This document shows, piece after piece, positions 35,957-42,099 of a stretch of DNA of 64,000 nucleotides. Every line of letters starts with the position of its first letter. Within the stretch, counting starts at the first letter, position 1. The notes under the pieces were generated by a model, which was not told where the DNA came from, made no database searches, and worked only from the letters and a program-made list of their open reading frames with translations. This DNA is from Corynebacterium pollutisoli (GTDB lineage: Bacteria > Actinomycetota > Actinomycetes > Mycobacteriales > Mycobacteriaceae): assembly GCF_900177745.1 (NCBI RefSeq), contig NZ_FXAR01000002.1, positions 62,001 through 126,000 on the forward strand, written 5' to 3'. Made by a program: the position numbers and the translations under genes.

Positions 35957-36862
35957 TCAGCGCCACACCAGCGGTTCGCGCGGCAGATCCGCCGGATCGA
36001 AGACGTCGCGGAGCTTCTGCAGGGTGTTCACGCCCGGGTACCCCATGGAGGCGGCGAGCTTCTCGACAATGCGGTGGACCGGGTCGTCGAGAAGCATCTC
36101 GCGCAGCGTCACGGCACCGTCGCGCTTCGCGAGACGCTGTCCCTGCTCGTTGACGACGAGCGGCACGTGGGCGTACTCCGGCAGATCAATGCCGAGCAGC
36201 GTCGCCAGGTAGGCCTGGCGCGGGGTGGACGAGAGCAGGTCGTCGCCGCGGACCACCTGGTCGATGCCCTGATAACCGTCGTCGACGACGACCGCCAGGT
36301 TGTACGCCCAGTCGGGTGCCTGGCCGCCGCGCCGCAGCACGAAGTCATCGACCTCGGTGGTGTACGAACCGTGGTAGCGGTCCTCGACGGTGAACTCGTC
36401 GACGTCCGCCCGCAGGCGCAGCGCCGGGGTCCGGCCCTGCGCGGCGAGCTCCTGCCGCTTCACCTCCCGCTCCGCATCCGACAGATCCCGGCACGTGCCC
36501 GGGTAGGAACCGGCAGGCGTGTGCGGGGCGCGGGCCGAATCCTGGATGTCCTTGCGCGAGCAGTAGCACTCGTAGACCAGACCGCGGGCGCCGAGCATGT
36601 CCAGCGCCCGCTGGTACGCGGGGAACCGCTCCGACTGGTACAGGATGTCCCCGTCGAAGGTGAGGCCGAGCGTGAGCAGATCGTCGATCTGCCGGTGCGC
36701 CGAGTCGATCGTCGAACGCTGCGTGTCGATGTCCTCCACCCGCAGCAGGAACTTCCGGCCCGTGTGCCGGGCGAAGAGCCAGGCGATCAGGCCGGTGCGG
36801 AGATTGCCGAAGTGCAGGTCTCCGGAAGGCGACGGGGCGTAACGGCCGGCATGCTCAGTCAT
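35957..36862 (-). CDS. gluQ: Glutamyl-Q tRNA(Asp) synthetase
   Basis: A 301-residue truncated GluRS paralogue that attaches glutamate to the queuosine base of tRNA-Asp instead of charging a tRNA end. It has the HIGH-like [11 protein letters not shown], the zinc Cys set ([10 protein letters not shown] ... PGTCRDL) and the KMSKS-like RLAKRDGA, and lacks the anticodon-binding domain. TACTCT (36874-36869) lies 6 nt upstream of the ATG. Its divergent neighbour encodes a queuosine-precursor transporter and tgt is 1.5 kb away, together forming a queuosine-salvage group. Confidence 0.93.
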
Positions 36863-36931: not shown

Positions 36932-37615
36932 GTGACCAACACCGATCCCGCACCTGGGCAGGGGATGACCACGACCCGGTTCATCCCCCTGCAGCGCAGC
37001 TACTACCCGATCATCGTGGCGTTCTTCGTCGCGGTGTTCCTCATCTCCAACATCCTGGCGACGAAGGGCGTGGCCATCGGCCCGCTCATCACCGACGGCG
37101 CCTTCTTCCTCTTCCCGCTGGCCTACGTCCTCGGCGACGTCCTGGCCGAGTGCTACGGCTTCCGGGCGGCCCGGCGCGCCATCTTCACCGGTTTCGCGGT
37201 GACCCTGCTGGCGGTGGTGTCGTTCTACGTGGCGATCTGGCTGCCGCCGGCGGACTTCTACGGCTCGCAGGACGAGTTCGCGCACATCCTGGGCCTCGTG
37301 CCGCAGATCGTGCTGGCCTCACTGACGGGGTACGTCGTGGGACAGCTGCTCAACTCGTGGGTGCTGGTGAAGATCAAGCAGCGCACCGGCGAGAAGTCGC
37401 TGTGGGCGCGCCTCATCGGCTCGACGGTGGTGGGTGAGTTCGGCGACACCCTGCTGTTCTGCCTCATCGCGGCCCCGGTGATCGGGATTGCGACGGTCGC
37501 CGACCTCATCAACTACGTGGTCGTGGGTTTCCTGTGGAAGACGCTCATCGAGGTGGCGCTACTGCCGCTGACCTACGCGGCGATCGCGTGGGTGAAGAAG
37601 CGGGAAGGCTACTGA
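36932..37615 (+). CDS. yhhQ: Queuosine-precursor transporter (YhhQ/VUT family)
   Basis: A 227-residue membrane protein with six helices. Family signatures are [42 protein letters not shown] and [17 protein letters not shown]. YhhQ-type proteins import preQ0, preQ1 or queuine. GTG 36932 gives a 10-residue longer N-terminus than ATG 36965; either is possible. It is divergent from gluQ (about 70 bp) and upstream of tgt. No de novo queuosine genes are seen in the window, so import would be the source. Confidence 0.9.
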
Positions 37616-37672: not shown

Positions 37673-38374
37673 CGCGGGTACGAGTCCGTTCACGGCCAGC
37701 TCTCCGGCGGCCAGCAGCAGCGCGTCGCCCTGGCCCGCGCCATGGTCACCCGCCCCCAGGTCATGCTTTTCGACGAACCGTTGTCCAACCTCGACGCCAC
37801 CCTCCGCGAGCGCATGCGCCTGCGCATCCGCCAGCTGCAGCGCGAGCTCGGGGCCACCGCCGTCTACGTCACCCACGACCAGTCCGAGGCGATGGCGATG
37901 AGGGACCTCGTCGTCGTCATGAACGCCGGGCGCATCGAGCAGGTGGCCTCCCCCTCCGAGCTCTACCGCCGCCCCGCCACCCGTTTCGTCGCCGGCTTCG
38001 TCGGCCGCGCCAACCTCATCGACGTCGACGACGCCTGCGTGGAGGAGGACGGGGCGCGCATCACCGCCTTCGGGCAGGGGATCACCGTCCCCGCGCACCC
38101 CGACCTCGCGGACGGCCACGCCCCGGCGGTGCTGCTCATCCGCCCCGAGGCCCTGCAGCTCACGCCGGTCCAGCCGGACACCCCGGACGCCGGGGATCTG
38201 GCCACCGTCACGGTCTCCGCGTTCATGGGCGAGCGCATCGACTACGAGCTCGACTGGCAGGGTCAGCGGCTGCTGGCCAGCCTGGCCAACCCGGAGGAGT
38301 CCGACGTCCACCCGGAGGGTACACGCGTCCGGCTGTCGACCCCCGGCTCCCGCGCCTGGGCGCTGCCGGCGTAG
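37673..38374 (+). pseudogene. N-terminally truncated ABC transporter ATPase
   Basis: The frame begins right after an in-frame TGA (37670-37672) and reads directly into [23 protein letters not shown] (ABC signature), then [12 protein letters not shown] (Walker B), the THDQSEAM switch His and a C-terminal TOBE-like domain ending normally. About 130 N-terminal residues, including Walker A, are missing, so it cannot bind ATP normally. The remaining part resembles MalK/UgpC/PotA-type sugar or polyamine importers. No permease or binding-protein genes are nearby. An ATG at 37742 could initiate a fragment. Confidence 0.85.
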
Positions 38375-38377
38375 GCA

Positions 38378-39619
38378 CTACTTCTTCTTCGCGTAGTACC
38401 GGCCCATGAACTCCGCACGGTACTCCTCGAAGTACCCTCCCTCGATCGAGGCGCGGACATTGTCCACCAGCCTGATCATGAAGCTCAGATTGTGGATCGT
38501 GCACAGCGTCATCCCGAGGAACTCGTTCGCCTTGAACAGGTGCCGCAGGTAGGCACGGGAGTAGTTCTCCGAGACGTAGCCGCCGAACTCCTCGTCGATA
38601 CCGCGGAAGTCCCGCTTGAACCCGGCGTTGACCAGGTTGAGACGCCCGTCGAGGGTGTACACACCACCCCGGCGCGCCAGGCGGGTCGGGGCGACACAGT
38701 CGAAGGTGTCCGCGCCCGCCTCCACGGCGGTGAAGATGTCGTCCGGCTCGGAGATGCCCAGCAGGTGACGCGGCTTGTCGACGGGCAGTTCATCGCACAC
38801 CCACCCCACGATCGTGCCCAGATTCTCCTTCTCCAGCGCCCCACCGATGCCGTATCCCCCGAAGCCGCGCTGCCCGGCGGCGACGCTGGCGTCGGAAAGC
38901 TCCACGAGATCGCGGGTGGCCTGCCGGCGCAGGTCCTCGTACTGGGCTCCCTGGATGACACCCCACAGCGACTGCAGCGGCCTGCCCTCGCGCAGCGCGG
39001 TCTGGCGGTTGTGCTCGTCGATGCAGCGCGCCGCCCACCGGTGGGTGCGCTCGACGGAGGCCTCCTGGTACGAGCGGGTGTCCATGAGGGTGGTCAGCTC
39101 GTCGAAGGCGAAGATGATGTCCGCGCCGAGCTGGTGCTGGATCTGCATGGAGATCTCCGGCGTGAAGCGGTGGCGGGAACCGTCGATGAAGCTGACGAAG
39201 TCCACGCCCTCCTCGTCGACGCGCGCCATGCTCTTCTTCTCGCGGCCCCAGTCCTGGCCGTCCTTCTGCTCCATGGTGAGCGTCTTCTGGAAGCCGACAC
39301 CCTGGCTCATCACCTGGAAGCCGCCCGAGTCGGTGTAGGTGGGCCCCGACCAGTTCTCGAAGCGCCCCACTCCCCCGGCCTCGTCGACGATGTCGGCGCC
39401 GGGCTGCAGGTAGAGGTGGTAGGCGTTCGACAGGATCGCCTGCGCGCCGGTCTGCTCGATCTGCTCCGGGGTAAGTGTCTTCACCGTGGCCTTCGTGGCG
39501 ACCGGGATGAACGCCGGCGTCTGAATGTCCCCGTGCGGGGTGTGGATCGTGCCGGTGCGCCCGTGGCGGCCGGGCCCGGAGCCGAGTTCGGTCCCGAGCG
39601 TGAATGACAGGTCGGTCAT
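38378..39619 (-). CDS. tgt: tRNA-guanine transglycosylase, atypical
   Basis: A 413-residue TIM-barrel enzyme that swaps guanine 34 of GUN-anticodon tRNAs for a deazaguanine. Present are the TDSGGFQV motif, the FDCVAPTRLARRG nucleophile region (Asp 307) and NYSRAYLRHLFK. Atypical points: the zinc-ligand motif CxCxxC normally just before NYSRAYL reads EEFGGYVSENY (residues 344-352), so all three Cys are absent although His 376 remains; the base-specificity loop reads GYGIGGALEK; and a roughly 20-residue insertion lies at about 112-135. These differ from both the bacterial preQ1 and the eukaryotic queuine enzymes I know. Overlaps the MmpL gene end by 4 bp. Confidence 0.9.
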   Translation of the reverse strand: MTDLSFTLGTELGSGPGRHGRTGTIHTPHGDIQTPAFIPVATKATVKTLTPEQIEQTGAQAILSNAYHLYLQPGADIVDEAGGVGRFENWSGPTYTDSGGFQVMSQGVGFQKTLTMEQKDGQDWGREKKSMARVDEEGVDFVSFIDGSRHRFTPEISMQIQHQLGADIIFAFDELTTLMDTRSYQEASVERTHRWAARCIDEHNRQTALREGRPLQSLWGVIQGAQYEDLRRQATRDLVELSDASVAAGQRGFGGYGIGGALEKENLGTIVGWVCDELPVDKPRHLLGISEPDDIFTAVEAGADTFDCVAPTRLARRGGVYTLDGRLNLVNAGFKRDFRGIDEEFGGYVSENYSRAYLRHLFKANEFLGMTLCTIHNLSFMIRLVDNVRASIEGGYFEEYRAEFMGRYYAKKK

Positions 39620-42099
39620 GGGGTGACCTTCTCCATTTCCTTGCGATGCAGTTGTTCGGCGGCGTGCCGCTCCTCCCACTCCTTCTCCAGGGCGGCGCCC
39701 TCGATGTCCATGCGGGGGATGAGGCGGTTGAGCCAGCGGGGGATCCACCAGGTGGCGTTGCCCATGAGGAACATCGTCGCCGGCACGAGGGCCATGCGGA
39801 CGAAGAAGGCGTCGAAGAACACGCCCACGCCGAGGGCGAAGCCGAAGATCTGGATGAACGGCAGCGGCTGGTCGATGAACGCGATGAACACGGCGATCAT
39901 GATGAGCGCGGCGGCGGTGACGACGCGGGCACCGCGGGTGAAGCCGACGATGGTGGACTCCTCGACGGCGTCGAGCCGGGACACCGCCCGCGGGGTGTCG
40001 GGGTCCGGGTTCTCGTGGGCCTTGACCCGCAGGTTGATGTAATGCTCGCGCATGCGGGTGACCAGAAAGACCTGGTAGTCCATCGCCAGACCGAAGGTGA
40101 CGCCGATGAGGAAGATGGGCATGAAGGAGATGAGCGGCGCCGGGGTGTTCACCAGGTCCCACAGCCCCTCCTGCCACACGAGCACGGTCATGCCGAAGGC
40201 GGCGCCCACGGAGAGCAGGAAGCCGAGGCCGGCGACGAGCGGCACCATGACCGAGCGGAACACGCCGAGCAGCAGGAAGATCGCCAGTCCGACGACGATG
40301 CCCAGGTACAGCGGCATCGCCCCGGAGAGCCGTTCGGTGATGTCCATCTGCACGGCGGTCAGGCCCGTGAGGCCGATGTCGGCGCCCGTGGCGTCGGCGA
40401 TCTGCTCCCCCTGCTCGCGCAGGGCGTGGGAGACCTGGGTCGTGTACTGGTCGTCGGGCCCCGTGAACGGGGTGACCAGGATCTGCGCCGCGTTGGTGTC
40501 CGGGTTCATGCCGATGAGCTGCGCGTGCTGCACGCCGCCGACGTTCTTCAGCTGGCCGACGGTGTACAGGTAGGAGCTGGTCACCGCCGCTTCCCGACGA
40601 TCCACCGGCTCCCCCTCCGCCGCCATCGACTCCTGGGCCTGCACGAGCGGGGCCAGGGCCGGGGCGTCCGGGTTGACGTCGTCCGCGTCGACGATGACGA
40701 GGAAGGGGGCGTTGACGCCCTCGCCGAATCCCTCGGCCATGAGGTCGGCGGACTTGCGCTGCGTGGTGTCCAGGTTGGACGTGGAGTCCGAGGGCAGCGA
40801 GAGCTCCATGTTGAGCACCGGGTAGGACAGGGCACCGAGGGTGAGCACGACGACCGCCATGACCAGGCCCGGGACGCGGCGCACGAAGCGGATCCAGCGG
40901 TTGCCCATGGTCGGCTTCGCGCGGCGGCGCTTCCCGTCGCGGACGTCCTTTTTCAGACGGTTGCCCGCCACACCGGGGACGCGGCCCTTGAACGTGCGGT
41001 CGCCCAGCACGCCGAGGAGAGCCGGGATGAACGTGAGCGCCACGAGCACCGCGACGAACACGGTGAACGCGGCCGACAGGCCCATCGCGGTGAGGAACTC
41101 GATGTTGACGATCGTCAGCGCGGCCAGCGCGATGATGACCGTGGCACCCGCGAAGACGACGGCGGATCCGGCGGTACCCACCGCCATGCCCGCGGCCTCG
41201 TCGGCGGGCATGCGCGTGCGTTCCGCCCGGTAGCGGGAGAGGATGAACAGCGCGTAGTCGATGCCCACGGCCAGGCCGATCATGACGGCCAGCACCGGGG
41301 TGATGTTGTTGAGTTCGACGAAGGCCGTGGCGATCATGATCGTCAGCGCGCCGATGCCCACCCCGATGACGGCGGTGAGCACCGGCAGACCGGCCGCGAT
41401 GAGGGAACCGAAGGTGACGATGAGCACCACGAACGCGATCGCCAGGCCGATGATCTCACTGCTCGTCTTCACCGTGATGGGGTCACCGAAACCGGCGCCG
41501 CCGGCCTCCACGGTGATGCCCTGCTCACGGCCCATGTCCATCGCCTCGTTGACGATGCGCCGGTGCTCGTCCGTGACGTCCATCGACGAGGGCACGTCAA
41601 TGGTGAAGGTGGTGTAGCCGATCCGCCCGTCGTCGGAGAGCATGCGCAGGTTGTACGCGTCATCCCGCGCGGTCTCCTCCGGCAGACCCTGCTCCGTCAT
41701 CATCTCGACGACCCCCTCCTGGAGGGCCGGCGAGACCTCGACGGGGTTGCCGAAGCGTTCCGTGCCGGTGAGGTCCGGCAGGTTGTCCCGGATGTGGGTG
41801 ACCACCGTGTCGATGGCCGCCGAGTTCTCCGGGTCGGCCAGCTGCTCGCCCTCCGGCGCGGCGAACACCACGTTGACGCCCGCCGCGTTGACGGGGTTGC
41901 CGCCCTCGGGGAACTTCTGCACCAGGACCTTCGTCGCCTCGATCGCGGGGGTGCCGCCGATGGAGAACTCGTTGGAGAAGGGCTTCTGGAAGGAGACGGC
42001 GGCACCGGCGACACCGGCCAGCGTCACCAGCCACAGGAGGATGACAATCCACTTGCGGTGAAAGGACCAGCGTCCCAGCTTGAACAGAAATTTAGCCAC
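39616..42099 (-). CDS. MmpL-type RND transporter
   Basis: An 827-residue MMPL-family exporter with two related halves, each a membrane helix, a large extracytoplasmic domain and five more helices. It shows the Asp-Tyr motif of RND proton relays (GIDYALFILSRYR and AMDYQVFLVTRMREHY). In Corynebacterium such proteins (CmpL) move trehalose mycolates or other lipids to the envelope; which one this is cannot be decided by eye. GTG 42099 follows GAGGAAG. Its stop overlaps the tgt start, suggesting co-transcription. Confidence 0.9.
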   Translation of the reverse strand: MAKFLFKLGRWSFHRKWIVILLWLVTLAGVAGAAVSFQKPFSNEFSIGGTPAIEATKVLVQKFPEGGNPVNAAGVNVVFAAPEGEQLADPENSAAIDTVVTHIRDNLPDLTGTERFGNPVEVSPALQEGVVEMMTEQGLPEETARDDAYNLRMLSDDGRIGYTTFTIDVPSSMDVTDEHRRIVNEAMDMGREQGITVEAGGAGFGDPITVKTSSEIIGLAIAFVVLIVTFGSLIAAGLPVLTAVIGVGIGALTIMIATAFVELNNITPVLAVMIGLAVGIDYALFILSRYRAERTRMPADEAAGMAVGTAGSAVVFAGATVIIALAALTIVNIEFLTAMGLSAAFTVFVAVLVALTFIPALLGVLGDRTFKGRVPGVAGNRLKKDVRDGKRRRAKPTMGNRWIRFVRRVPGLVMAVVVLTLGALSYPVLNMELSLPSDSTSNLDTTQRKSADLMAEGFGEGVNAPFLVIVDADDVNPDAPALAPLVQAQESMAAEGEPVDRREAAVTSSYLYTVGQLKNVGGVQHAQLIGMNPDTNAAQILVTPFTGPDDQYTTQVSHALREQGEQIADATGADIGLTGLTAVQMDITERLSGAMPLYLGIVVGLAIFLLLGVFRSVMVPLVAGLGFLLSVGAAFGMTVLVWQEGLWDLVNTPAPLISFMPIFLIGVTFGLAMDYQVFLVTRMREHYINLRVKAHENPDPDTPRAVSRLDAVEESTIVGFTRGARVVTAAALIMIAVFIAFIDQPLPFIQIFGFALGVGVFFDAFFVRMALVPATMFLMGNATWWIPRWLNRLIPRMDIEGAALEKEWEERHAAEQLHRKEMEKVTP

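Follow-up and report, generated by a model that had tools for sequence, protein, structure and literature searches.

Introduction

The closest described counterparts of the protein reported here are the bacterial tRNA-guanine transglycosylases (TGTs) of the TIGR00430 family, exemplified by the enzymes of Zymomonas mobilis and Escherichia coli. The usual chemistry of the family is the attack of an aspartate on C1' of G34, assisted by a second aspartate. The zinc domain has been named one of two hallmarks of TGTs (PMC6165067), and TGT is said to need zinc for its activity (PMC9508795). Among the open-access papers found in searches for zinc-free or actinobacterial TGTs, no title or abstract opening names a zinc-free TGT, and neither PMC11570991 nor PMC11130926 uses the word 'zinc' in its main text.

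Two described types are relevant to the insertion of queuine. The TGTs of the Chlamydia trachomatis type carry a GG[LS][AS]G loop, reported as typical of queuine TGTs, and occur in genomes with tgt and a QPTR transporter gene that lack QueA, QueG and QueH; queuine insertion is predicted for them (PMC11570991). Eukaryotic QTRT1/QTRT2 is a two-subunit zinc enzyme, in which the absence of side chains at positions 232-233 of QTRT1 makes room for the cyclopentene-diol, while the Z. mobilis TGT has a valine (PMC6165067). As for Actinomycetota, most gut members are predicted queuine salvagers without QueA and QueG/QueH (PMC11130926), and most Mycobacteriales species are described as retaining only tgt (PMC11570991). 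The salvage route that the gene described below probably serves is known; what is new is that a whole group of TGTs has naturally lost its zinc site.

A Tgt with an intact active site and no zinc cysteines

The window, a 64,000-nucleotide stretch of the Corynebacterium pollutisoli genome, encodes a 413-residue Tgt at 38378..39619 on the minus strand; the open reading frame runs from 39619 to 38378, and the initial annotation had given no strand. The protein belongs to the NCBIfam equivalog family TIGR00430 (408.1 bits against a cut-off of 306.75, spanning model positions 9-365 of 368) and scores 399.7 bits against PF01702, whereas the archaeosine TGT model TIGR00432 gives 101 bits, below its cut-off of 350. 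Searches of PADLOC (E <= 10) and PHROGs (E <= 0.001), either of which may lack a DpdA model, returned no family. With a single PF01702 match, the C. pollutisoli genome encodes no second TGT, nor a non-catalytic subunit of the QTRT1/QTRT2 type.

Residues D97, D173, Q223, G259-G260 and D307, which we take to be the catalytic aspartate pair and the base-binding residues, align with their counterparts in E. coli and Z. mobilis Tgt and are invariant in a 44-row alignment. The initial annotation had already noted the retained nucleophile Asp307 (codon 38699..38701, minus strand), to which the alignments with both enzymes add Asp97. In fold, catalytic aspartates and base-binding residues, the protein is thus alike to the bacterial enzymes; it differs from them in lacking the zinc cysteines, in a specificity loop three residues shorter, in a 22-residue insertion and in a genome without QueA, QueG and QueH. 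The replacement of CxCxxC by FGGYVS at residues 345-350 (codons 38570..38587, minus strand) was read correctly from the start: alignment with Z. mobilis and E. coli Tgt places the cysteine columns at F345, G347 and S350. His376, at the position of the fourth zinc ligand, is still a histidine and is all that is left of the canonical CxCxxC...H site, so we file the protein, by its sequence, as a variant rather than as a canonical zinc Tgt.

The gene does not look like a sequencing error or a pseudogene, because its closest named relative, from a Corynebacterium sp. MAG, is 95% identical (among the best 80 of 575 relatives, a sample that leans to near relatives), because 22 other rows of the genus share the motif xGG[YH]VS (19 named Corynebacterium loci and L161, L165 and L171, which carry the window's genus code) and because dN/dS is 0.007-0.18 in six pairs, indicating purifying selection. 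The relatives' motif, the TIGR00430 score and dN/dS likewise rule out a chance or misread frame. The same data bear on whether the loss of zinc marks the decay of a catalytically dead or merely structural homologue, as the stated zinc requirement (PMC9508795) and the degenerate TGT domains of a related genus (g30, see below) could suggest. The intact, invariant active-site residues, the low dN/dS and the status of the gene as the sole TGT of its genome, near genes for YhhQ and GluQRS, make such a homologue very unlikely.

In an AlphaFold model of the protein (mean pLDDT 85.8, pTM 0.87), the former zinc subdomain is confidently predicted, with pLDDT 93-97 in the blocks covering residues 331-360; this is the C-terminal region for which the initial annotation had proposed structure prediction. 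The loop block 261-270 reaches pLDDT 76, and residues 108-129 fall below 50. VIA-align superimposes model residues 1-410 on Z. mobilis TGT entries with Z 47-49, the 359-371 aligned residues agreeing to 1.8-2.1 A and in the best matches to 1.8-1.9 A, which places the barrel and the C-terminal subdomain within the TGT fold, and the model of a zinc-type Nocardia control has matching C-terminal helices. Both models were built on one alignment and AlphaFold models no metal, so they show no more than that the sequence is compatible with the fold. Residues W326, Y330 and H333 of Z. mobilis Tgt, which have a role in the dimer, correspond to Y353, Y357 and H360 of the protein.

Loss of the zinc ligands across relatives

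How widespread is the loss? In an alignment of actinobacterial TGT loci, all three cysteines are missing from 49 of 168 rows and all three are present in the other 119, with no partial site. Besides the window gene, the zinc-less rows come from Corynebacterium (19 loci), from Gordonia (7 loci) and from further genomes of the family (22 loci, under 11 genus codes that include the window's own). Some genes were reached twice and stand in the 168 rows as pairs (e.g. L064/L085, L076/L087 and L078/L086), and kept outside the set were L001 (the window gene itself), L178 (distant), L179 (partial), L180 (missed by the single-sequence search) and the degenerate L181-L183. The partial gene L179, which carries the window's genus code, reads FPDSPTEGF at the site and also has no cysteines.

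The initial annotation had considered that cysteine ligands might be supplied from another position. We looked for these in the 168-row alignment and found none: no column gains a conserved cysteine or histidine in the 49 zinc-less rows, which rules out relocated zinc ligands of this kind. A metal might still be held by other ligands, either by His376 together with Asp or Glu residues or by a partner protein, and His376 is indeed present in 49/49 zinc-less rows. However, it is equally invariant in the zinc-type rows, no new Cys or His accompanies it, and the motif has been replaced differently in each sub-group: xGG[YH]VS in Corynebacterium and the window's genus code (xGGYVS in the window's form), GPSEVS in the g3 rows, and a form one residue shorter, xNYT-S, in Gordonia and others. 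We consider a metal bound in this way highly improbable. To judge from the sequences, the varied replacements are what one expects of a ligand site freed from constraint.

The zinc-type actinobacterial TGTs (Nocardia, Rhodococcus, Mycolicibacterium, Brevibacterium and others) are about 60-68% identical to the window protein, among the best 80 of 575 relatives. They have the same type of loop and the insertion and often the same YhhQ/GluQRS neighbourhood, and yet retain CxCxxC; alignment columns 95, 217, 219 and 254 also separate the two sets. In a tree rooted on E. coli, from which the motif and insertion columns had been removed, the 33 zinc-less of 68 rows form one group inside 34 zinc-type actinobacterial rows, with an SH-aLRT value of 80 on a branch that is not starred; the branch leading to E. 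coli is extremely long. In a second tree (47 of 108 rows zinc-less), rooted on the distant actinobacterial L178, the zinc label needs two changes, because two g7 rows stand next to L178; the starred branches force the same count, and the 60 zinc-type rows other than L178 form one side of a starred branch. For the trees, the zinc-type set was thinned manually, and the near-copies L009/L010 were taken out. The simplest reading of these sequences would be that the zinc site was lost once, before Corynebacterium, Gordonia and the genera related to them diverged.

The specificity loop and the insertion are general

Two further features had been put forward as peculiarities of this protein, and neither kept that status. 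Residues 255-264 do read GYGIGGALEK (codons 38828..38857, minus strand), and the loop, which continues after GYGIGG as ALEKENLG, is three residues shorter than in E. coli. However, GGA[LIM]xK is found in 168/168 actinobacterial rows, in the form GGALEK in 142 of them. Similarly, the insertion estimated at roughly 20 residues is real and comprises 22 relative to E. coli Tgt (V108-K129, codons 39233..39298, minus strand), but it is common to the catalytic actinobacterial rows inspected, apart from the distant L178 and the partial L179. Both features are general to the actinobacterial TGTs aligned, and we rejected them as marks of a separate class. Of the three features, only the loss of the cysteines distinguishes a sub-group.

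The loop is also not the GG[LS][AS]G loop reported for the Chlamydia-type queuine TGTs (PMC11570991), which speaks against queuine insertion. By analogy with QTRT1, the shortened loop may avoid a clash with the position of Val233, that part of the loop being deleted. It would represent a second way for a bacterial TGT to accept queuine.

Queuosine pathway genes and the predicted substrate

Two further queuosine-related genes lie in the window near tgt: a queuosine-precursor transporter gene of the YhhQ/QPTR family (Vut_1) at 36965..37615 on the plus strand (TIGR00697 119.5 bits against 50.95; PF02592 173.3 against 27.2) and a gene for the tRNA glutamyl-Q(34) synthetase GluQRS at 35957..36862 on the minus strand (NF004315 314.1 bits against 250; TIGR03838 289.1 against 276.7). 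Profile searches of the C. pollutisoli genome found none of QueA, QueG and QueH, which gives it the same combination of tgt and QPTR genes as the Chlamydia type.

This pattern extends to relatives. Among 44 genomes searched, YhhQ was found in 41, and GluQRS scored over its cut-off in 32, just below it in 10 and as fragments in 2; QueH was found in none, QueG in none over its cut-off (with 4 partial matches below it) and QueA in 4. QueC matches occurred in 27 of the 44 genomes, 18 of them over the cut-off, but outside G015 none of them extends over more than 72 of the 210 model positions; the short ones may be other ATP-pyrophosphatases, a weakly held reading of the sequences. In a wider sample of 251 family genomes, TGT and YhhQ tend to occur together: both are present in 233, neither in 12, TGT only in 5 and YhhQ only in 1 (Fisher p 8e-16, in species that are not independent). 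All five TGT-only genomes carry the window's genus code. C. glutamicum, included as a control, gave matches to both the TGT and the YhhQ family. QueA-family genes occur in 26 of the 251, namely in 22 of the 238 with a TGT and in 4 of the 13 without, and none of the 26 falls under the 11 genus codes in which zinc-less TGTs were seen. Such genes need not serve queuosine, because 4 of the 26 genomes have no TGT at all. These four (G112, G128, G167 and G179, all of genus g29) also lack a YhhQ match, and their QueA-like enzyme perhaps acts outside queuosine synthesis. The one QueC match among the 44 genomes that spans the model lies in a small Corynebacterium MAG (G015:C23:20979-21617, locus L088).

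GluQRS acts on Q34 in tRNA-Asp, so Q should be the end product. Since YhhQ and GluQRS are encoded and QueA, QueG and QueH are absent, the enzyme most likely inserts queuine directly after its import. We accordingly favour, with a probability of about 0.75, a working zinc-free Tgt that puts imported queuine in the place of G34 in GUN-anticodon tRNAs, as part of a YhhQ-Tgt-GluQRS salvage route. In this route, YhhQ would import queuine, and Tgt would swap G34 of these tRNAs directly for it, with Asp307 attacking C1' of G34 and Asp97 assisting; GluQRS would then make glutamyl-Q on tRNA-Asp. The GGALEK loop, shorter by three residues, would avoid the clash that Val233 causes in preQ1 enzymes, as other queuine TGTs do with small residues. 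The C-terminal zinc subdomain would be kept as a fold that has lost its metal cross-link and is held together by metal-free packing. With eukaryotic QTRT1/QTRT2 the protein would have the queuine substrate in common, as it does the catalytic aspartate, while the single TGT of C. pollutisoli sets it apart from that two-subunit zinc enzyme (PMC6165067).

Gene content can mislead about the substrate, because a Bartonella genome with only tgt and QPTR proved to use preQ1 (PMC11570991) and a preQ1 transporter is encoded beside tgt in Bifidobacterium breve (PMC11130926). A preQ1-inserting TGT whose pathway ends at preQ1-tRNA, as in Bartonella, has these precedents. Against it stand GluQRS, present in nearly all genomes tested and acting on Q and not on preQ1, a loop that is not of the GGLAVG preQ1 type, and the absence of QueA, QueG and QueH, which lead from preQ1 to Q; we regard a preQ1 end point as unlikely. 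The initial annotation had suggested a distinct Tgt class with queuine, or even another deazaguanine, as its substrate. Queuine gains support from the pathway context and the other deazaguanine is not favoured, given GluQRS, while the proposed class dissolves into the wider actinobacterial GGALEK group, for which salvage had already been predicted (PMC11130926, PMC11570991).

A natural zinc-less group makes it possible to test directly what zinc contributes to TGTs, be it in folding, in the dimer or in the grip on tRNA. The group would also exemplify how a protein can shed zinc through a change of the protein itself.

An MMPL transporter and degenerate TGT domains

Upstream of tgt, a gene for an MMPL-family transporter (39616..42099, minus strand; PF03176, 273 bits) overlaps the tgt start by 4 nt, the stop of the one and the start of the other sharing ATGA. 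In 17 of the 19 named Corynebacterium loci, tgt is preceded on its own strand, within 150 nt, by an MMPL gene; the two exceptions are L006, whose flank extends over only about 400 bases, and L019, where no MMPL gene is seen. In genus g30, MMPL and TGT form one open frame of 1424 codons. Tsukamurella is described as having an MMPL-TGT fusion (Tpau_4044) and an MFS-TGT fusion (Tpau_0550) (PMC11130926), and g30 is probably Tsukamurella because such fusions are described there. The altered partner that the initial annotation had envisaged is not borne out in a genome with one TGT, although the overlap, and the fusion in another genus, point toward queuine transport as a possible function of the MMPL protein.

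Linkage to MMPL does not correlate with the loss of zinc. MMPL genes also lie beside zinc-type tgt in g20 and g24 and within 7 kb of it in g5 and g31, and none was found near the zinc-less tgt of g3, g4, g6, g7 and g8; altogether, MMPL was near tgt in 12 of the 20 regions examined. Neighbours were searched with single-sequence queries, and loci from the genome search extend only some 1.4 kb beyond the gene at either end.

A TGT without a YhhQ match was seen in five genomes of the Corynebacterium type (G130, G169, G202, G268 and G283) and at the named loci L017, L018 and L020. The five genomes carry the window's genus code; in the three whose tgt region was examined, MMPL was within 3 kb of tgt in 3/3, on the opposite strand in two, and it is upstream of tgt at all three named loci. 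These gene positions fit MMPL as a possible second transporter. The MMPL protein of C. propinquum failed to support preQ1 salvage in E. coli, for which the authors consider poor expression a possible reason (PMC11130926).

Genus g30 also contains degenerate second TGT domains, two of them in MFS-TGT fusions (L181:4466-7651, plus strand, G096; L182:1923-5507, plus strand, G073) and a third at L183:4736-5950 (minus strand, G073). In all three, SGGFQ no longer follows the first Asp, QG is without its Gln, the first loop Gly is gone, and Ala replaces the Asp of FDE. L181 and L182 retain the nucleophile Asp, whereas L183 has a Glu aligned with it; QTRT2 is also described as having a Glu at this position (PMC6165067). 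More than one stretch of TGT match occurs in 15 of 16 g30 genomes, stretches that may be pieces of one gene. One could picture a membrane-linked module around a metal-free transglycosylase, in which MMPL would hand queuine or a queuine-containing compound to Tgt and, in the probable Tsukamurella, the degenerate MFS-TGT would act as a QTRT2-like accessory subunit, a picture that we consider unlikely.

Between the YhhQ gene and tgt, positions 37742-38374 (plus strand) match model positions 149-326 of 357 of a MalK/UgpC-type ABC ATPase, its C-terminal half, with in-frame stops upstream. From its sequence it looks like a decayed remnant, and a stretch like it is present in the close relative L002.
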